This document shows positions 7,198 to 15,936 of a stretch of 15,936 bases of DNA, in pieces (position 1 is the stretch's first letter; each line of letters opens with the position of its first letter). A model generated the notes under the pieces. The model was not told where the DNA came from. It searched no databases and worked only from the letters and a program-made list of their open reading frames with translations. Both the position numbers and the translations under genes were made by a program. The DNA lies in assembly GCA_030064795.1 (NCBI GenBank), contig JASJEI010000225.1, positions 1 to 15,936 of the forward strand, given 5' to 3'. The stretch is from Pleurocapsa sp. MO_226.B13 (GTDB lineage Bacteria; Cyanobacteriota; Cyanobacteriia; Cyanobacteriales; Xenococcaceae).

Positions 7198-9939
7198 TCA
7201 TAACCAATTTCCTACCAAAATAAAAGAAGCCCAATGATAAGGACGATTGTAATCTGTATCTGAATACTGACGTAAAAAAGCAAGTTGTGCTTGACGCAAT
7301 GCTTCTGCTTTAGTTATCTGAGGATTTCTCAGTTGTTGATAAAATTGAATCATAAATTCGGCAGTAGAAGCATCATTGATTTGCCAGAGAGTAGCTAAAG
7401 TACTGCGGGTTCCAGCCCTAATCGCAATTCCTGCCAATCCTAAAGCAGCTCGTTTATCGCCAGCAGCAGTTTCACAGGCACTTAAAACCAGTAGTTCAAT
7501 GGGAGTTGCGGACTGTTCTCCTCTAACTCGTAACAAATTATCTAAATCTTTAACTTTAATACGTTCTTGCCAATCGAGTAAATAAGTTTGTTCGGGATTG
7601 GAACTAAAAGTGCCGTGAGTAGCTATGTGCAGGATATTAAAAGGAACTGAATTAATCAGATTTTTCAGGTTTTGCTGAAGAAAGTTTTGCTGGACTAACT
7701 TTTGATGATTATTAATTTGTTGGGCAACTTCGGCTAATTCTAGCTCAACATTATCTATGGGACTTAATCCTTCTGCTTGAAAACTAGGAGCGTCAGTTGC
7801 TCCTGCTAATAATACATTTAACTTTTCTGACAGCAAAGATTGTGGTTCTAACAACTGTAAACCAGGCGTAACGGCGATCGCATACTTTTCTATTAGATAG
7901 CGTTTTCCGTCGTAGAGGGCTGCCATTGGTAAATTTCTTAACGAACCATCCAAAACAAACACCAAAGTTTTTATCTTATTTTCTAAATCGGTTGCCAATG
8001 GTTTAACTAACCAGTCATAAATTTGTTGCGATTCTTGTTTTACCTGATTTAAACTGGTACTTCTTCTCGTCAAGGAGCGACGTAATTGTTGAACTGCTCG
8101 ATCTACTTGAGTTTCAGAAACATCTCGATTAGCATAATGATGCAGGTTATTTGCCCCAGGTAATTTAACAATAATCTCCAGACGATTTTCTAAGATAATG
8201 GGATAGATAACTGCCGCAGAAGCGTCTAAATTGTCAATATCTACTTTTTCTGGTTGGGCGCAAGCATCTCGGAAAAAATTATCTATTTCGGCAAGTTGGA
8301 GTGCTTCGATAACATTACGAGCTTGAATTAAATTCTCTTTACTTGGTTGAGGAGAACCTAAAAGTAAATCTACTAACTGCCGATAAACTGGTTCTACGCT
8401 TTCGCGAAAGGAAAATTGAACTTCTGGATTGAGGACAACTAAATCGCTGCGTAATTCATTGAGAGTGTTAAAGGCTTGAGTGTAATAGTTAAGTACTTCT
8501 GTATTAACTTTATCTGGTGTTTGTCGTGTGCGATGCTGAATAATACGTCCCATTTGCCATTGCCACCTGTAGGTAATATCTGGTGCATTAATAGTTTGAG
8601 CGATTAATAAAGCTGAGAAAGTAAACTTTTCTGCTTGCAACCAATCTGCTTGTTGTTCGTAAAATTCGCCCAAAGTTCCCAGGGCATAGGATTCTGCTTT
8701 TTTATCATCTAGTTTTTTAGCCTGCTCGCCAGCTTGATTTAATATTTGAGCAATATTTGCCATCTTAGTTTTATTTTCTTGGCTATGCTCCAGCTTCATC
8801 AAACTCTGAGCAAAATTGACACTGGCATAGATAGATGGACGACTGACGGGTAATTGAGGGAGAAGGGAATTGATTTCTGGTAATAACATCTCAGCAGAAT
8901 TGTATCGATCCGTAGGGGACGCGGTAGCGTAATCGCGTTCGAGTAACAGACTGAACTGATTTAATCTTGCTTGAATTTGAATGAGGGGAAAATTGGTAGT
9001 TGCTGCTGCTTGTTGATAGTGAGCTAAAGCTGCCTGATGGTAAGATTCTGCTAGTTGTGGGTTTTTGCGCTCTTCTTCTCTTCGAGCTAAAGTTCTTTCG
9101 GTGTTAGCTAAACTGAATAATATTTGGCTTTTATGTTGAGGCGATTCACTTAATAATGCAGATCGCGTAGCAGCTAATTTCTCTAGCATTGCCAAGCTTC
9201 GCTCTAAAATTTCTTGGGAACGGTCTAAATCTCCTCCTTGTCTGTGAATATTCCCCAAATTATTCCAGCTTTTGACTTTAAGTAGAGAATCTGGTTCTGT
9301 CTCTAGCTTATTTTCTATCTGAGTGAATAGTTTTTGAGATCGACGATAAAACCCTAAATTTTGCAATGCTTGGGCTTGATTGATCTGGCTGCCGATTACA
9401 CCTATCTTATCTTCAGCTTGCTGATACAATAATTCAGTTTTTTCAAAATTTTCTAAGGCTTGCTCCGTTTTTCCTCTTGCCAACAGTAAACGTCCCTGAC
9501 GATTTAAAACTTGAGCGCGAACTCGATTATTTTGCTCTTTTGGGGTCAAAGTTTCAAGTAAAGACAAACTAGAAGCGATCGCCTTTTCTGCTTGCTGTAA
9601 CTCTCCTAGTTCTTGATAAGCTAATGATAGAAAACTCAGAGTTTGTGCTTGCTTAATTACATCTCGATTTGCTACATATATTTGCGTTGCTTGTTGTAAT
9701 GCTTTGACAGCATCAGTAAACTGTCCTGAATGGTAATATTGTTTTCCAGCTTGGACTAATGAGTTCGGAGTTCGGAGTTTGGAGTTCGGAGTTTGGAGTT
9801 CGGAGTTGTTCTGATTAATTGGTTGCTTGGCGTTAACGGTCAACCATCCATTAAGACTAAGACTTAGAATTAAGCCCAAAATCGCGAGATGCCTTCGGCA
9901 ACACTTCGCGATCGCTATCAATCTACCAAGACGTTTCAT
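7198..9939 (-). CDS. Exported TPR-CHAT caspase-like protein
   Basis: From the ATG at 9939 the protein has 913 residues; a longer frame to 9966 would need a TTG start. I prefer 9939 because its ATG overlaps the TGA of the upstream exoprotein gene (ATGA) and opens a signal peptide: 'MKRLGRLIAIAKCCRRH', then a hydrophobic stretch, with cleavage likely after 'TVNA' near residue 37. Residues about 60-480 are tetratricopeptide repeats ('AGKQYYHSGQFTDAVKAL', 'NLGNIHRQGGDLDRSQEIL', 'LGTLGEFYEQQADWLQAEKF'). The C-terminal third is a CHAT domain with the catalytic pair His775 in 'ILHIATHGTF' and Cys822 in 'LLVLSACETAAGD'. It ends 'YHWASFILVGNWL', as in many cyanobacterial CHAT proteins. CHAT domains are clan CD cysteine peptidases. 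The signal peptide places this one outside the cytoplasm, where the neighbouring exoproteins are likely substrates or partners (inference). Confidence 0.9.
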   Translation of the reverse strand: MKRLGRLIAIAKCCRRHLAILGLILSLSLNGWLTVNAKQPINQNNSELQTPNSKLRTPNSLVQAGKQYYHSGQFTDAVKALQQATQIYVANRDVIKQAQTLSFLSLAYQELGELQQAEKAIASSLSLLETLTPKEQNNRVRAQVLNRQGRLLLARGKTEQALENFEKTELLYQQAEDKIGVIGSQINQAQALQNLGFYRRSQKLFTQIENKLETEPDSLLKVKSWNNLGNIHRQGGDLDRSQEILERSLAMLEKLAATRSALLSESPQHKSQILFSLANTERTLARREEERKNPQLAESYHQAALAHYQQAAATTNFPLIQIQARLNQFSLLLERDYATASPTDRYNSAEMLLPEINSLLPQLPVSRPSIYASVNFAQSLMKLEHSQENKTKMANIAQILNQAGEQAKKLDDKKAESYALGTLGEFYEQQADWLQAEKFTFSALLIAQTINAPDITYRWQWQMGRIIQHRTRQTPDKVNTEVLNYYTQAFNTLNELRSDLVVLNPEVQFSFRESVEPVYRQLVDLLLGSPQPSKENLIQARNVIEALQLAEIDNFFRDACAQPEKVDIDNLDASAAVIYPIILENRLEIIVKLPGANNLHHYANRDVSETQVDRAVQQLRRSLTRRSTSLNQVKQESQQIYDWLVKPLATDLENKIKTLVFVLDGSLRNLPMAALYDGKRYLIEKYAIAVTPGLQLLEPQSLLSEKLNVLLAGATDAPSFQAEGLSPIDNVELELAEVAQQINNHQKLVQQNFLQQNLKNLINSVPFNILHIATHGTFSSNPEQTYLLDWQERIKVKDLDNLLRVRGEQSATPIELLVLSACETAAGDKRAALGLAGIAIRAGTRSTLATLWQINDASTAEFMIQFYQQLRNPQITKAEALRQAQLAFLRQYSDTDYNRPYHWASFILVGNWL
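9761..9808. repeat. In-frame heptanucleotide tandem repeat inside the CHAT gene
   Basis: Six copies of a 7-base unit (gagttcg, twice as gagtttg) plus a partial seventh run from 9761 to 9808. Six units equal 42 bases or 14 codons, so the reading frame is kept. They encode the low-complexity linker 'NSELQTPNSKLRTPNS' between the signal peptide and the first TPR. Gain or loss of one or two units would shift the frame. Confidence 0.85.
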
Positions 9940-12900
9940 TGTTTCACTTCGTCTAATAACTGACAATTTGGTGGCAAGAAGGAAGAACTTCGGGAAACTG
10001 ACTTAACTGGTTGAGCAGAGAGAACGATATTACCATTGGGTGCAATAAACCAGCTTTGAGCTTCAATGATTTGATGAGAATCATCGTAATTTTCTTCTAA
10101 AAGCGATCGCGTTTGAGATGATTGAGGCGATCGTTGATGATTGGATTCACTATTTACTACCATGCGCCAATCTTCCCAACCAGCATCAGTATTGAGAGTA
10201 TCTTGGGGAGAAGGAGATAAGCCACCTTTACCAGTAATAATAAATTCGCCTTCTTGACCAGCCGAACAAAGATTCCGATTGATTAATTTACTGACATCAA
10301 CAATTTCTATGGGCAACGCGATCGATTCTTGACCAGGCTCAAGTCCTGAAGTGTTAATGTTGACAGTACCATCGAAACCAAACTCAGAGCTAGCGGTAAT
10401 GTCACTTAAATTAGAATTTTCTTGCAGTGCAAAGCCAAAGATATTTTCAGTATCGATTTGAATATTACCGCCATCCCCTGCAAAAGCATTAGCAGTAATA
10501 TCGCTATTTTCTTGGGGAAAAGCCACAATTAAATCAGCAGCAATATTGATATCGCCACCATCTCCGCCAGCTTGAGCAGTACCAGCAGTAGTGGAGATTT
10601 GGCTTTGATTGCGCAACAGCAATAAGTCCTGCATCTGTAGCGCAATGTCGCCCCCTGTGTTGCTAGCGGTTTGAGCAGAGATGGAGGCTCCATTGTCGAG
10701 GGTGAGAGAATCTGCCTGAAGGAAGATGTTGCCCCCTGTTCCCTCTCCCTGGCTATTGACAGAGATAGTCGCGCCATCCCGAATGACCACGATTCTGGGG
10801 TCAATGAAAATACTGCCGCCTTGACCGCTAGAACCGACAGTGGTGCTGGCAAATAGTCCACTGTCAGCCTCGGTTAGGATAATGCTGTCAGTTACTTTCA
10901 GGGTGATATCCCCCGCATTAAAGCTGCCTGATGTACTCGTGAGCAGTTGCCCGCCATTGGTGGCTTCAAGGGTGTTCGCGGTGACGGCAATGCTGCCTGC
11001 TTTACCTTCTCCCAAAGTACTGGCAGACACTTGAGCTCCATTGGTAACAGACAGAGAGCCTGTACTAATCTCCACACCTCCGGCGTTTCCTACTGCCCTA
11101 GGCTGTACTTTGCTTAATGCACCACCGGACCCGAATCGGCTAGATTCCCCTTCAAACACCACAGAGTCGGCGGCATGAATCGTCACACTGCCGGCATTCC
11201 CCTCTCCTCTGGTACTGGCAGACACTTGAGCGCCATTGGTAACAGAAAGGGAGCCAGTGGTAATTGAGATACTCCCCGCGTTGCCCCTTGCGAGGGGGTC
11301 TACTAAGCTGAATGCACCACTGTTCAATCCAATGCTAGTTTCCCCATCAAACAAGACCTTCTCGCTGGCAGTAAGGGTCATACTACCAGCATTTCCCTCT
11401 CCAATGGTACTGACAGACAATTCAGCTCCATTGGTGACTTCAAGAGAGCTAGTAGTAATTGAGATACCCCCCGCGTTACCTCTTCCCCTAGGACGCACTT
11501 GGCTAAATGCACCACTGCCTTCTCCATCGATATCTTCCCCATCAAACACGACAGACTCCGTGGCTTGAATCGTCACTATGCCGGCATTGCCCTCTCCATT
11601 GGTACTGGCAGACAGTATAGCTCCATTGAGTACTTTCAGGGAGCCAGTAGTAATTGAGATATTCCCCGCGTTGCCCCTTGCCCCAAAACTCAATCGGCTG
11701 AATGCACCACCCGGACCAAATAATTGCTTGCCAGCCCCATCAAACAAGACGGTATCGGTGGCATTAATCTTCACACTGCCGGCATTCCCCTCTCCTTCTG
11801 TAAAAGTCGCCACTTGAGCTCCATTGGTAACAGCAAGGTAAACAGTTGTAATGTCTATATTGCCTGCGTTACCCCTTCCTTGAGTTTGAGTAAACAGGCC
11901 ACTGGAAGTACCATCAACAGGATCAAAGCCAATCACTTGCACTGATTCGGAGGCATTCACCGTTAAGTCTCCCCCGTCTCTATCGCCCCTATTAGTAGCT
12001 GTAATCTGAGCCCCTTCCAGAAGCTGCAATTGACTGGTTATAATCGTTACGTTTCCACCCTTTCCCGTTACTAAAGTTTGGTCGTCCAAGGGACTGCGAA
12101 ACAAGCGACTGCCAAAAGAAGAACCTGTGTTGCTTTGTATACTACTACTAAAACTACCATTATCAAAGGGAAGAGATCCTGTAGCACCAATTATTTGGAC
12201 TGATTCTGAGGCGTTTACGGTTAAATTTCCTCCATTCCCCTGACTGAAAGTACCAGCTAAGACTCTTGCTCCATTTTCGACTCGCAAATGTTTGGTAGTA
12301 ATTGTCAGGTCTCCCGCATCTCCTGTTCCTCCAGTTTGAGTAAACAAACCGCTAGATAGTAGCTTGTCAGCTGTAGTCCCAGTAAGTTCGACTGATTCCG
12401 AGGCATTTACTACCAACCCTTGTCCAGCCTTCGCTCCCAGAGTGGTAGCTGCTATCTGGGAACCATCACTAAGCTTCACCTGCCTACCCCATACTGCGAT
12501 TGCACCACCACCCTCACCACTGGTGTTGACAAAAGCTTCATTGGTAAGTGATATATCTGCTCGCGCTATATCTTCGGGAAAACTTAAATTCAGGTTGCTT
12601 CCATCAACATTTAGCCCTATCGTTCCTGAGCCAGCGACTCCTGCTAATTCCACTTGCCCTCCTGGAGCGTGCAACCCTCCTCCATCTATGGCAATGTCTC
12701 CACCCACCAGCAGCAAACTCTGACCATCAGGCACTCGCAAACCAGATAGAGGCTCTCCTAATAGATCTACTCCTGCTGGTGCAGTTGACCTATTTTCAAT
12801 CCGTCCTGGGTTAATTTGATTGAAGAAAAAAGCAGAGGGTTTAATTGTTAATAACGGTGGTTGTTCTGGTTCAGTGGCACTAAAAAAACCGCGATCGCCA

Positions 12901-13379
12901 AATTGAATGGCATTAGCCGTACTCGCTGCAAACGAACCTCCCACATCTAAACTGGCATTTTCGCCAAAAATAATGCCATTAGGATTAATCAAAAATAGAT
13001 TGGCATTACCATTAACCCCCAAGGTTCCGAAAATCTCTGAAAGATTACTGCCCGTTACTCGACTAAAAATATTAGTAATTCCTGCTGGATTAGCAAAATA
13101 AACCCGTTGTAAATCTCCGATATTGAATTCTTGGAAACTGTGAAACAGATTACTATCTCTGATAGCACCACCATCAATGCGATCGGCGGTTCGTCCTTTT
13201 ATTTCTACATTAGGTGTGACAACTGAGGCTTCATTACCCAAACTATTATCGGGAATAATCTGAGCTATAGCGCGATCGCCATTGCCAGCAAATAATACTA
13301 GCTCTGTTAAGAAAGCGAGCTTGGCTAAAATACCAGATAATACGAATTTCAAGTCATGGTGATTCCAGTATTGAGTCAT
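9936..13379 (-). CDS. TPS-domain exoprotein with filamentous haemagglutinin N-terminus, 1147 aa
   Basis: The protein starts with an extended signal peptide, with cleavage likely after 'DRAIA' at residue 39. A TPS (haemagglutination-activity) domain follows, with 'SNLFHSFQEFNIGDLQRVYF' (76-95), 'FSRVTGSNLSEIFGTLG' and the family motif NPNGI in 'INPNGIIFGENASLDVGG'. After about residue 300 come seven or so beta-helix repeats of 63-65 residues, patterned as 'GNAGSVTIHAADSVVFEG…' then 'GNAGSISITTGSLSVTNGAQ'. The conserved C-terminus has 'DGTVNINTSGLEPGQESIAL', 'VDVSKLINRNLCS' and 'GWEDWR'. The only cysteines of the mature protein are C1038 and C1139. Such proteins cross the outer membrane through a TpsB pore; none is encoded in this window. 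It is the second gene of the operon, 43 bases after its paralog. Its TGA stop overlaps the CHAT gene start. Confidence 0.9.
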   Translation of the reverse strand: MTQYWNHHDLKFVLSGILAKLAFLTELVLFAGNGDRAIAQIIPDNSLGNEASVVTPNVEIKGRTADRIDGGAIRDSNLFHSFQEFNIGDLQRVYFANPAGITNIFSRVTGSNLSEIFGTLGVNGNANLFLINPNGIIFGENASLDVGGSFAASTANAIQFGDRGFFSATEPEQPPLLTIKPSAFFFNQINPGRIENRSTAPAGVDLLGEPLSGLRVPDGQSLLLVGGDIAIDGGGLHAPGGQVELAGVAGSGTIGLNVDGSNLNLSFPEDIARADISLTNEAFVNTSGEGGGAIAVWGRQVKLSDGSQIAATTLGAKAGQGLVVNASESVELTGTTADKLLSSGLFTQTGGTGDAGDLTITTKHLRVENGARVLAGTFSQGNGGNLTVNASESVQIIGATGSLPFDNGSFSSSIQSNTGSSFGSRLFRSPLDDQTLVTGKGGNVTIITSQLQLLEGAQITATNRGDRDGGDLTVNASESVQVIGFDPVDGTSSGLFTQTQGRGNAGNIDITTVYLAVTNGAQVATFTEGEGNAGSVKINATDTVLFDGAGKQLFGPGGAFSRLSFGARGNAGNISITTGSLKVLNGAILSASTNGEGNAGIVTIQATESVVFDGEDIDGEGSGAFSQVRPRGRGNAGGISITTSSLEVTNGAELSVSTIGEGNAGSMTLTASEKVLFDGETSIGLNSGAFSLVDPLARGNAGSISITTGSLSVTNGAQVSASTRGEGNAGSVTIHAADSVVFEGESSRFGSGGALSKVQPRAVGNAGGVEISTGSLSVTNGAQVSASTLGEGKAGSIAVTANTLEATNGGQLLTSTSGSFNAGDITLKVTDSIILTEADSGLFASTTVGSSGQGGSIFIDPRIVVIRDGATISVNSQGEGTGGNIFLQADSLTLDNGASISAQTASNTGGDIALQMQDLLLLRNQSQISTTAGTAQAGGDGGDINIAADLIVAFPQENSDITANAFAGDGGNIQIDTENIFGFALQENSNLSDITASSEFGFDGTVNINTSGLEPGQESIALPIEIVDVSKLINRNLCSAGQEGEFIITGKGGLSPSPQDTLNTDAGWEDWRMVVNSESNHQRSPQSSQTRSLLEENYDDSHQIIEAQSWFIAPNGNIVLSAQPVKSVSRSSSFLPPNCQLLDEVKQ
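10163..10660 (-). repeat. C-terminal module shared by the two exoprotein genes (copy 1)
   Basis: This part of the 1147-residue exoprotein gene is closely similar to about 13619-14119 in the upstream paralog, both as DNA and as protein. It includes 'QDLLLLR', 'GGDGGDINIAADLIV', 'GQESIALPIEIVDVSKLI' and 'GKGGLSPSP'. It marks the fixed C-terminal end of the duplicated genes. Confidence 0.75.
10985..11990 (-). repeat. Approximately 195-bp tandem coding repeats
   Basis: Within the 1147-residue exoprotein, the DNA around the codons for 'GNAG(S/I)(V/M)T' recurs near 11769, 11572, 11377, 11183 and 10985, a spacing of 194-198 bases. Each unit encodes one 63-65 residue beta-helix module. The nearest units keep strong nucleotide similarity ('gccggcattcccctctcc' and 'tggtactggcagacacttga'), which indicates recent duplication or gene conversion. 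Confidence 0.75.
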
Positions 13380-13419
13380 GTTGTTAATTTTCGATTCTTA
13401 TCTATTCACGTTCTCTCAG
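12826..13419 (-). repeat. Duplicated 5' block of the exoprotein genes (copy 1)
   Basis: The leader and TPS-domain coding sequence match 15344-15936 almost base for base. The match includes about 40 untranslated bases upstream of the ATG, where both copies share 'atcgaaaattaacaac' and 'ctgagaga'. The proteins differ at only about a dozen of the first 170 residues, so the tandem duplication carried its own leader. Confidence 0.85.
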
Positions 13420-13422
13420 CAA

Positions 13423-15897
13423 TCAACAATCGAATGGATCTAACCAAGAATCTTGAGATTGTACATTAGTTGGTTGGGCAGTAAGAACGATCTTACCATT
13501 GGGAGCTTTGTACCAACCCTGAGCTTCAATAATTGTTGGAAAATTATCTCGATTTTTGGGAGTTACTTCTTTTCTGGGTGCAATTGCTTGTTGATTATTT
13601 CCTTGATTATCTTCTGTGATGCGCCAATCTTCCCAGCCCGCATCGGTGTCAAGAGGATCTTTTGGAGAAGGAGATAAACCACCTTTACCAGTAATAATAA
13701 ATTCGTCCTTTTGCTCAGACGAACAAAGATTGCGATCGATTAATTTACTGACATCAACAATTTCTATCGGTAACGCGATCGATTCTTGACCAGGCTCAAG
13801 TCCTGAAGTGTTAATGTTGACAGTACCATCTAGACCAAATTGAGAGCTAGCGGTAATGTCACTTAAGTTAGGATTTGCTTGCAACTCAAATCCAAAGATA
13901 TTTTCAGTATTAATTTGGATATTACCACCCTTACCTTCAAAAGCATTAGCAGTAATATCGCTATTTTCTTGAGGAAAAGAAACAATCAAATCGGCAGCAA
14001 TGTTGATATCGCCACCATCTCCCCCTGATTCAGCAGTGCCAGCAGTAGTAGAGATTTGGCTACCGCGACGCAGTAGCAATAAGTCCTGAACTTTCAAGGT
14101 AATATCGCCTCCATTACCCGAACTGGTTGTGGCAGAGATCGCTCCTTGATTATCTAGCAGAATAGAACCAGCTGTAATTTCAAGTTGACCAGCATCTCCT
14201 GGCTGAGAATTTGAGTCTGGAAGGTTTTCTAAACTGCTGACACTAACTTGAGCCCTATCCTGGATAGTCAATTGACCCGTGTTAATAGTCAAATTACCTC
14301 CATTACCTGTACCGACGACAACTACCCCCCTTCTAATTGCTTCTAGTCGTCCACCAGTTTCAGCAACTAACCTGCTAGGTTGACCATTCTCTGAAGTTCC
14401 AATTAAGAAGATGGATTCAGTTGCATTGATATTGACATCGCCTCCATCACCTTCACCAAAGGTAGAAGCTGAAACCTCTGCGCCGTCTCGAACCATCAAT
14501 CGTTTCGTGTTAATGTTTAAATTTCCTGCTTTTCCCGAGCCTCGTGTCTGCACCGATAATCCACCAGGACGTTGTCTGTTAGGTAAGAAACCACTCAACT
14601 CTACTGACTCAGAAGCATTGACGATAATATTTCCTCCTCCAGGCTTATCTATAGTAGATGCTGAAATCCTCGCCCCATCTCGAACAATTAAGTGTTTGGT
14701 GTTGAGAATCAAGTTTCCAGCTTCTCCTTCTCCTCTGGCATCACTTTCCAATTGACTCGGTCTTTCCCTTTGCATTGAGTTTTGACTCTGACCACCAATA
14801 GAGAAGCCAGTTACTTCTATCAAGTCAGCAGCATTAACCTCAATCCCACTACTATTTCCCTGACTTTCTTCTGTGGTAGAGGCTGATATTTGCGAACCAC
14901 CTCGAACAAGAAGCTGCCTAGTCTGAAGAGAAATTCTTTTGCCATTTAAATTTCCCAGAGTGTTGGCAATAATTTCTGATTCATTATCTAGGGTAATATG
15001 CTGACCCTGAATCTTCACGAAACCACCACCCTGCCCGCTAACATCTACTTGCGCTCGATTAATCAAGGATATATCAGCTAAGTTTAAACTTTCAGGAACA
15101 GTTACGCTCAGGTTATTGCCATCAAGATTAAGCCCTACAGTTCCAGAGTTAGCAATTCCTACTAATTCCACTTGACCTTCTAAAGCATTTAATCCTCCGC
15201 CATCTAAAACAATATCTCCTCCCACCAATAGTAAGCTTCGACCGTCAGGAACTCTTAAACCGAATAAAGGCTCGTCTGCTAAATTAACTCCTGCTGATGC
15301 GGTTGCTCGATTGGTAATTTTTGCTGTCTGAATTTGATTTAAAAAAAAGGCAGAAGGATTCACTGTTAGTAACGGTGGTTGTTCTGGATCGGTGGCACTA
15401 AAAAAACCGCGATCGCCGAACTGGATAGCATTAGCCGTACTCGCTGCAAATGAACCTCCCACATCTAAACTGGCATTTTCGCCAAAAATAATCCCGTTGG
15501 GATTGAGCAAAAAAAGATTGGCATTGCCATTAACCCCCAAGGTTCCCAAAATCTCTGAAAGATTACTGCCCGTTACTCGACTAAAAATATTAGTAATTCC
15601 TTCTGGATTAGCAAAATATACCCGTTGCAAATCTCCAATATTAAATTCTTGAAAACTGTGAAACAGATTACTATCTCTGATTGCACCACCATCAATACGC
15701 TCGGCGGTTCGTCCTTTAATTTCTACATTAGGTGTTACAACTGAAGCTTCTGCACCCAAACTATCATCAGGAATAATTTGAGCTATAGCGCGATCGCTCC
15801 ATCCAGCAAATAATACTAGCTCTGTTAAGAGAGCGAGCTTGGCTAAAATACCAGATAATAAGAATTTAAAGTAATGGTGATTCCAGTATTGAGTCAT
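13423..15897 (-). CDS. TPS-domain exoprotein with filamentous haemagglutinin N-terminus, 824 aa
   Basis: This is a shorter paralog of the next gene and shares its first 170 residues almost exactly: signal peptide to 'SDRAIA' at 39, the TPS domain with NPNGI in 'LNPNGIIFGENASLDVGG', and 'SFQEFNIGDLQRVYF'. The middle is different, with about four beta-helix modules that are more diverged, such as 'GEAGNLILNTKHLIVRDGAR' and 'GDGGDVNINATESIFLIGT'. The C-terminal module is again shared ('GQESIALPIEIVDVSKLI', 'GWEDWR'). The two cysteines of the mature protein are C725 and the final residue C824. It is the first gene of the operon seen here; its promoter lies beyond the window edge. No Shine-Dalgarno precedes the ATG at 15897, as in its paralog. 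An exported, surface-bound or released beta-helix protein is expected; its binding target is unknown. Confidence 0.9.
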   Translation of the reverse strand: MTQYWNHHYFKFLLSGILAKLALLTELVLFAGWSDRAIAQIIPDDSLGAEASVVTPNVEIKGRTAERIDGGAIRDSNLFHSFQEFNIGDLQRVYFANPEGITNIFSRVTGSNLSEILGTLGVNGNANLFLLNPNGIIFGENASLDVGGSFAASTANAIQFGDRGFFSATDPEQPPLLTVNPSAFFLNQIQTAKITNRATASAGVNLADEPLFGLRVPDGRSLLLVGGDIVLDGGGLNALEGQVELVGIANSGTVGLNLDGNNLSVTVPESLNLADISLINRAQVDVSGQGGGFVKIQGQHITLDNESEIIANTLGNLNGKRISLQTRQLLVRGGSQISASTTEESQGNSSGIEVNAADLIEVTGFSIGGQSQNSMQRERPSQLESDARGEGEAGNLILNTKHLIVRDGARISASTIDKPGGGNIIVNASESVELSGFLPNRQRPGGLSVQTRGSGKAGNLNINTKRLMVRDGAEVSASTFGEGDGGDVNINATESIFLIGTSENGQPSRLVAETGGRLEAIRRGVVVVGTGNGGNLTINTGQLTIQDRAQVSVSSLENLPDSNSQPGDAGQLEITAGSILLDNQGAISATTSSGNGGDITLKVQDLLLLRRGSQISTTAGTAESGGDGGDINIAADLIVSFPQENSDITANAFEGKGGNIQINTENIFGFELQANPNLSDITASSQFGLDGTVNINTSGLEPGQESIALPIEIVDVSKLIDRNLCSSEQKDEFIITGKGGLSPSPKDPLDTDAGWEDWRITEDNQGNNQQAIAPRKEVTPKNRDNFPTIIEAQGWYKAPNGKIVLTAQPTNVQSQDSWLDPFDC
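13619..14119 (-). repeat. C-terminal module shared by the two exoprotein genes (copy 2)
   Basis: Partner of the block at about 10163-10660. Similarity falls off past the 'GWEDWR' codons, where the two proteins carry unrelated spacers, and then partly recovers in the terminal 'IIEAQ…APNG…IVL.AQP' segment. Confidence 0.75.
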
Positions 15898-15936
15898 GTT
15901 GTTAATTTTCGATGCCGATCAATTCACTTCTCTCAG
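15344..15936 (-). repeat. Duplicated 5' block of the exoprotein genes (copy 2)
   Basis: Partner of 12826-13419. The match still holds at the window edge ('ctgagaga' at 15929-15936), so the duplicated unit may extend further and another paralog may lie upstream. Confidence 0.85.

Follow-up and report, generated by a model that had tools for sequence, protein, structure and literature searches.

The C-terminal disulfide anchor of HMW1 and HxuA from Haemophilus influenzae is an established precedent for holding a two-partner secretion (TPS) exoprotein at the cell. According to the excerpts of two reports consulted here (PMC3983070, PMC5422565), a C-terminal cysteine pair is needed for tethering of HMW1, and the C-terminus of this protein lies in the periplasm or in the TpsB pore. 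A stretch of 15,936 nt from Pleurocapsa sp. MO_226.B13 (contig JASJEI010000225.1, hereafter the window) encodes on its minus strand two TPS exoproteins followed by a TPR-CHAT protein, which joins tetratricopeptide repeats (TPRs) to a caspase-like CHAT domain. Comparisons with related loci suggest that these genes encode a TPS (type Vb) system in which a dedicated clan-CD partner acts on the C-terminal anchor of the exoproteins, a reading to which we give a probability of roughly 0.6. Judged from sequence comparisons, it is nearly certain that the TPR-CHAT protein and the exoproteins are functionally coupled.

Exoprotein 1 (13423..15897, minus strand; 824 residues) and exoprotein 2 (9936..13379, minus strand; 1147 residues) both carry the N-terminal TPS secretion domain of TpsA proteins (Pfam PF05860, 4.2e-51 and 2.2e-54, respectively; NCBIfam TIGR01901). 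They are close tandem paralogues, identical at 178 of 200 N-terminal residues and spaced by 43 bp. The stop codon of exoprotein 2 shares the four nucleotides ATGA with the start codon of the TPR-CHAT gene (7198..9939, minus strand; TCAT on the plus strand at 9936-9939), whose product is 913 residues long from this ATG and matches Pfam CHAT (E=7.4e-60) along with TPRs. An in-frame TTG is located upstream of the ATG, at 9966. By hydropathy, all three N-termini possess the hydrophobic segment typical of signal peptides, and the proteins are predicted to be exported. An earlier description of this DNA, made from its letters alone (the original prediction), had claimed this gene order with its 43-base gap and -4 overlap, the TPS and TPR-CHAT identities, and signal peptides on both kinds of protein; the coordinates and domain matches bear these claims out, the last of them at the level of hydropathy prediction. 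No TpsB gene was seen within the window. The leader of exoprotein 1 (15898-15936) resembles that of exoprotein 2, so a further tandem copy may lie beyond the window edge.

Each exoprotein ends in a domain of roughly 100 residues that has no Pfam or NCBIfam annotation in the window proteins. Its layout comprises a cysteine, about 12-15 residues, the motif (T)G[RK]GG(L/I)P, a variable linker, the pattern EAQGW...G.V.L.A, and a cysteine at or near the end. The C-terminal cysteine pair of an HMW1-type anchor is therefore present, and its pairing as a disulfide is presumed. In exoprotein 1, Cys725 (13723..13725, minus strand) and the last residue, Cys824 (13426..13428, minus strand), are the only two cysteines and presumably form the disulfide; TGKGG lies between them at residues 736-740 (13678..13692, minus strand). 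The corresponding features of exoprotein 2 are Cys1038 (10266..10268), Cys1139 (9963..9965) and TGKGG at residues 1049-1053 (10221..10235), all on the minus strand. The two cysteines that enclose the motif are the only ones after residue 60 in 66 of 68 open reading frames (ORFs) from related loci and in 109 of 112 database proteins. These counts are taken from 70 ORFs, less one that is masked (L031) and one from L050 whose motif lies 188 residues from the end, and from 120 database proteins, less three that end before the tail and five with motif variants (IGKGG once, IGRGG once and TGRRG three times). The central position of the motif is Arg or Lys in 66 of 69 locus ORFs, a seventieth having no pattern match and reading ATGRGG by eye, and in 107 of the 112 database proteins. 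A sequence search for a solved relative of the domain yielded none, its single match being at E 0.98. The domain, its cysteine pair, and the DUF928 and CHASE2 neighbours of relatives mentioned below were absent from the original prediction.

One line of evidence for coupling is the distribution of the two modules over 194 cyanobacterial genomes. The C-terminal domain occurs in 49 of these and the TPR-CHAT family, whose threshold was fixed before the result was seen, also in 49; the two sets of genomes are identical. TPS domains are found in 72 genomes, any CHAT domain in 82 and POTRA_2 in 172, with all 49 included each time, and DUF928 is found in 60, among them 48 of the 49. If genomes were independent, the probability of this coincidence would be 4e-47 overall and 6e-13 among the 61 genomes that hold both TPS and CHAT (the 49 plus 12 others), values that are both too small because kinship among the 194 genomes is uncorrected. 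Relaxed thresholds were applied to the 44 genomes that bear CHAT or TPS but neither module. No full-length TPR-CHAT was found among them: the best match reached 3e-72 over the CHAT part only, versus 1e-121 or better in positives, and the best match to the C-terminal domain reached 4e-4, versus about 1e-13 or better. Copy numbers per genome are lower bounds, with at most four TPR-CHAT, 20 C-terminal-domain, 11 CHAT and 13 TPS candidates scored. Eight genomes (G001-G008) each have 14-62 CHAT matches at E<=1e-15, and the one with 62 (G005) seems to hold near-duplicate contigs.

Such a pattern could also arise by neutral co-inheritance, with the C-terminal domain a mere lineage marker of an exoprotein family that expanded alongside TPR-CHAT proteins in large genomes. 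Both modules are indeed often multi-copy and reside in genomes of 3.5-9 Mb, and relatedness was left uncorrected. The exact identity of the 49-genome sets nevertheless speaks against this explanation, as do the negatives among genomes larger than 5 Mb (e.g., G012, G024, G026, G030). Together with the recurrent adjacency across the CHAT tree, the TpsB genes beside CHAT in some loci and the two kinds of TPS-CHAT fusion presented below, these observations leave neutral co-inheritance strongly disfavoured.

Genomic context was assessed in the best 80 loci from a single scan of genomes, annotated with hidden Markov models built in this analysis. Adjacency is not confined to the source genome and recurs across loci of other cyanobacteria. 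In 35 of the 64 loci that have at least 1.5 kb of upstream sequence, an ORF with a TPS or C-terminal domain lies on the same strand and ends no more than 400 bp before the CHAT gene, and such an ORF lies within 4 kb in 40 of the 57 loci whose flanks extend 4 kb in each direction. Five further loci (L015, L020, L028, L034, L056) place an ORF of 589-640 residues directly before CHAT, with the TPS or C-terminal-domain ORF further upstream; in L015, L020 and L056, this intervening ORF encodes a ShlB-type TpsB transporter. Operon-like orders thus include both TPS-CHAT and TPS-TpsB-CHAT. In an evenly drawn genome set, at least 32 of 131 TPR-CHATs have a same-strand C-terminal-domain match no more than 1 kb upstream, where 0.07 would be expected from match density; this count uses 150 of 269 C-terminal matches and at most four CHATs scored per genome. 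TPS adjacency is scattered over the CHAT tree, requiring 15 changes versus a shuffled mean of 16.0. The proposal that adjacency reflects a single clade was rejected on this basis, and the scatter implies that the TPS-CHAT link has been repeatedly gained, kept or lost.

Gene fusions provide a second line of evidence. Among the 12 genomes that have TPS and CHAT but neither module, nine encode both in one chain (13 proteins), one (G084) has the two on adjacent ORFs, TPS first and CHAT about 60 bp later, and two (G159, G163) have TPS matches at contig edges. Of the 61 genomes with both, 59 therefore show a genetic link between a caspase-family protein and TPS exoproteins, 49 through the C-terminal domain plus TPR-CHAT and 10 through fusion or adjacency. 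Pfam was run on 11 of the single-chain proteins and found TPS and CHAT together in 10; for the eleventh (L151), CHAT comes from Pfam and TPS from a separate search. Two others (L154:6821-12295 and L155) rest on six-frame matches. The catalytic Cys pattern is present in all 13 single-chain proteins, and the motif TG.GGLP or TG.GGIP is present in none of them. A second kind of fusion, represented by five database proteins of 1618-1768 residues (the two with a named source come from Geminocystis sp. and Cyanobacterium aponinum), unites TPS, the C-terminal domain, TPR and CHAT in a single polypeptide. All five retain TGRGG and the upstream cysteine, and the terminal cysteine is gone. Tagged fusion ORFs of this type also occur in two of the 49 genomes (L081, L082). 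The C-terminal domain accompanies CHATs that are encoded separately and is missing from chains in which CHAT directly follows the passenger. Its most likely role is therefore recognition in trans, and it looks like a tag that is needed when CHAT is a separate protein.

The fusions bear on location as well. The original prediction had placed the CHAT protein outside the cytoplasm, and a natural fusion argues against a cytoplasmic location, since in it TPR-CHAT follows the signal peptide and TPS domain of an exoprotein. In a third kind of fusion (L083-L086, four genomes, the first three with Pfam support), an exoprotein with its C-terminal domain is joined to POTRA/ShlB, and a separate CHAT gene comes next. 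The union of TpsA and TpsB in one polypeptide is an unusual type V arrangement. Here the C-terminal domain stands directly before POTRA, and this position, along with the analogy to the HMW1/HxuA anchor as the consulted excerpts portray it, suggests that the domain is on the periplasmic side. The wider proposal of a surface system, in which the TPR-CHAT protein processes or senses the exoproteins, gains support from the adjacency in other genomes, the TPS-CHAT single chains and the tagged fusions.

That the CHAT domain is probably an active peptidase is suggested by its conservation. The TPR-CHAT protein begins with a predicted signal peptide (residues 1-37, ending ...TVNA|KQ; 9829..9939, minus strand), whose cleavage site was placed by eye from an A-x-A-like pattern. 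Relative to other rows of the family alignment, this protein (P0001) has an 8-residue insertion within the signal peptide at residues 11-18. A TPR superhelix (about residues 58-545; 8305..9768), the non-catalytic Cys560 (8260..8262) and the Pfam CHAT domain (residues 636-911; 7207..8034) follow, all on the minus strand, as expected of a clan-CD TPR-CHAT peptidase with its His/Cys dyad after the TPRs. The intact pair reported in the original prediction was located at the same positions, His775 (7615..7617, minus strand) and Cys822 (7474..7476, minus strand), and both residues are kept in all 197 homologues that cover them, which argues for catalysis. Cys560 is kept in 200 of 200 aligned homologues, and the mature part has exactly two cysteines in 159 of 200. 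Among eight further cyanobacterial CHATs, six are free of cysteine over the 350 residues that precede the catalytic Cys. A hydropathy pattern confined to the N-terminus was found in 73 of 82 CHAT ORFs versus 48 of 399 other ORFs, by a crude test that under-calls exported proteins (its threshold is reached by only 18 of 73 TPS ORFs). The nearest named relatives of the TPR-CHAT protein are from Pleurocapsa sp. An argument from the S1 pocket for Arg/Lys specificity was abandoned, as no confident mapping could be made for the separase residue given in PMC9729208, and Asp856 and Glu734, being CHAT-wide (20 of 20 outgroup CHATs), weaken the argument. Asp828 is invariant in the TPR-CHAT family (197 of 197) and is Asp in seven of 20 outgroup CHATs.

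The modelled fold of the TPR-CHAT protein resembles Csx29 and separase, with plain TPR proteins (e.g., LGN) scoring as high, and a PDB sequence search with the CHAT domain alone gave no match. The comparison with Csx29 drawn in the original prediction thus holds for likeness of the modelled fold; membership in the Csx29 family was rejected, at 26.7 bits versus a curated cut-off of 300 bits. This likeness raises the idea that TPR-CHAT is a conflict or cell-death protease, similar to Csx29 or to gasdermin systems, that is triggered by surface contact via the exoprotein. The consulted excerpt of PMC9729208 describes a Csx29-type TPR-CHAT that cuts Csx30 once activated. However, PADLOC returned only a weak generic TPR model for the window (20.7 bits), on which grounds a defence-system reading was set aside; no gasdermin or CRISPR family appeared among the window proteins scanned, and the predicted location is extracytoplasmic. 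We regard a conflict role as quite improbable.

The favoured reading of a TPS system with a dedicated clan-CD partner can be put as a sequence of steps. Sec would carry the exoproteins across the inner membrane, and a TpsB pore would take them across the outer one. The C-terminal domain of about 100 residues, closed by the sole two cysteines, would remain in the periplasm and act there as an anchor or stop. TPR-CHAT, exported on its own, would recognise this domain, probably via its TPR superhelix, and the CHAT protease would cut in or beside it, plausibly at TG[RK]GG, such that the cut sets retention, trimming or release of the exoprotein. Where CHAT is fused behind a TPS/beta-helix passenger, recognition would occur in cis, which would explain the absence of the tag. 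We infer periplasmic retention, the disulfide, cleavage, its site and its effect on release. Proteolysis of the exoprotein C-terminus by CHAT has slightly better than even odds in our estimation, and a cut exactly at TG[RK]|GG is doubtful.

Several observations weigh against this model, beginning with the motif. Arg or Lys is replaced by Q, T or S in five of the 112 database exoproteins, by S, S or Q in three of the 69 locus ORFs, and by P in G022. The TpsA-TpsB fusions carry TGRGG once and then TGGGG, PGSGG and TGSSG, the basic residue being lost in three of four, and the CHATs beside these three keep their catalytic motifs. A second TGKGG occurs in the beta-helix body of exoprotein 2 (residues 438-442). 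Since the basic residue is not universal and the motif also appears in the body, TG[RK]|GG is only a lead for the cut site; TG[RK]GG may be a structural turn instead. The structure model of the C-terminal domain has low confidence, with a predicted local distance difference test score of 61.7. In 17 of the 57 loci with full 4-kb flanks, TPS and C-terminal-domain ORFs are absent from that range. The His pattern that we used matches 11 of 13 single-chain CHATs and misses two, and the genomes G070 and G187 also hold TPS ORFs with no CHAT motif seen. Only exoproteins from the window and from CHAT loci went into the profile of the C-terminal domain, so it may overlook variants in other settings. 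The domain and TPR-CHAT also share one ORF in G117 and G127, two of the 49 genomes, and are not independent there. For both reasons, the searches for the two modules lack full independence. Genomes positive for the domain often have more TPS matches than tags (three versus one in G117 and G127, 13 versus seven in G016), partly due to the scoring of only 20 tag candidates per genome. Export is not specific to the family, as five of eight other cyanobacterial CHATs look exported by eye. Two genomes (G084, G101) have a TPS protein and no POTRA_2 match at 1e-8.

The neighbours of the family suggest a different division of labour, in which the exoprotein is a signal, its C-terminus is bound in the periplasm by TPR-CHAT as a chaperone or receptor, and the protease target is elsewhere (e.g., DUF928 or a CHASE2 sensor). 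DUF928 genes lie within 4 kb at 37 of the 57 loci, CHASE2 genes at 34 and ShlB genes at six; DUF928 is also present in 48 of the 49 genomes, as given above. Most of 12 DUF928 N-termini inspected by eye include a hydrophobic stretch, and the basic residue of the motif is dispensable in some exoproteins. CHASE2 proteins with kinase, SpoIIE or CHAT outputs recur with DUF928 beside the family (L026, L054, L021, L076, L077, L060 and others). On the other side, the nearest candidate substrate is the exoprotein, given the TPS-CHAT single chains and the TPS-tag-TPR-CHAT fusions, and neither DUF928 nor CHASE2 is found among the seven window ORFs scanned. We consider the chaperone or receptor role rather unlikely, though it carries far more weight than the conflict and neutral explanations.

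A more speculative extension of the protease reading would define an undescribed class of tag and protease. A Cys-closed TG[RK]GG tail would be read by an exported caspase-fold protease, either in trans (tagged) or in cis (fused, with the tag lost); a thiol might be handed over between the upstream cysteine of the exoprotein and Cys560, and DUF928 and CHASE2 would relay a surface signal inward. The basis for the handover is that tagged fusions, with their terminal cysteine lost, keep the upstream cysteine together with a cysteine at the Cys560 position, which lies 259-260 residues before the catalytic Cys, versus 262 in the window protein. We hold this extended proposal tentatively, as possible rather than probable.

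TPS proteins, disulfide anchors and CHAT proteases are each known separately, and their pairing appears to be new. A literature search on CHAT with two-partner secretion or filamentous hemagglutinin, in which subscription papers and preprints were thinly covered, found no title on this pairing. In many cyanobacteria, predicted surface proteins of very large size have a caspase-like enzyme of their own, as a fusion or as a partner linked to a conserved tail. This arrangement suggests that a built-in protease trims, anchors or releases proteins at the cell surface. The association offers a predicted substrate for part of the large cyanobacterial CHAT expansion, a defined candidate recognition domain, and a testable model for retention or shedding of very large surface proteins.

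Downstream of the block, Pfam and NCBIfam show unrelated genes, among them one like O-succinylbenzoate-CoA ligase and one like Tab2. Two overlapping plus-strand ORFs at 694-1454 look by eye like one frameshifted beta-helix-type gene, and a short ORF at 1723-2082 resembles, again by eye, what we take to be a GIY-YIG nuclease fragment.

Several established systems come close to the one proposed here. Filamentous hemagglutinin (FHA) of Bordetella is likewise a TPS exoprotein matured by a dedicated exported protease, SphB1, which differs in being a subtilisin autotransporter. The LapG/LapA and PorU/type IX secretion (T9SS) systems also rely on a periplasmic or surface cysteine protease to control retention or C-terminal trimming, and PorU also belongs to clan CD; they differ in protease family, secretion route and recognition signal. 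HetF of Anabaena is a cyanobacterial CHAT protein with TPRs, but its CHAT lies in residues 1-555, it has one predicted transmembrane segment, and it acts in cell division and heterocyst formation; the consulted excerpt of PMC8406250 contains no link to TPS. Csx29 is an RNA-guided type III-E CRISPR partner in the excerpt of PMC9729208, whereas the window protein is predicted to be exported. HMW1 and HxuA share with the exoproteins of the window the combination of TPS export and a C-terminal cysteine pair. However, the cysteines are about 100 residues apart here and 10 apart in HMW1 (Cys1518 and Cys1528 in the excerpts consulted), and the loop that their presumed pairing would close carries TG[RK]GG and is coupled to a CHAT protein.

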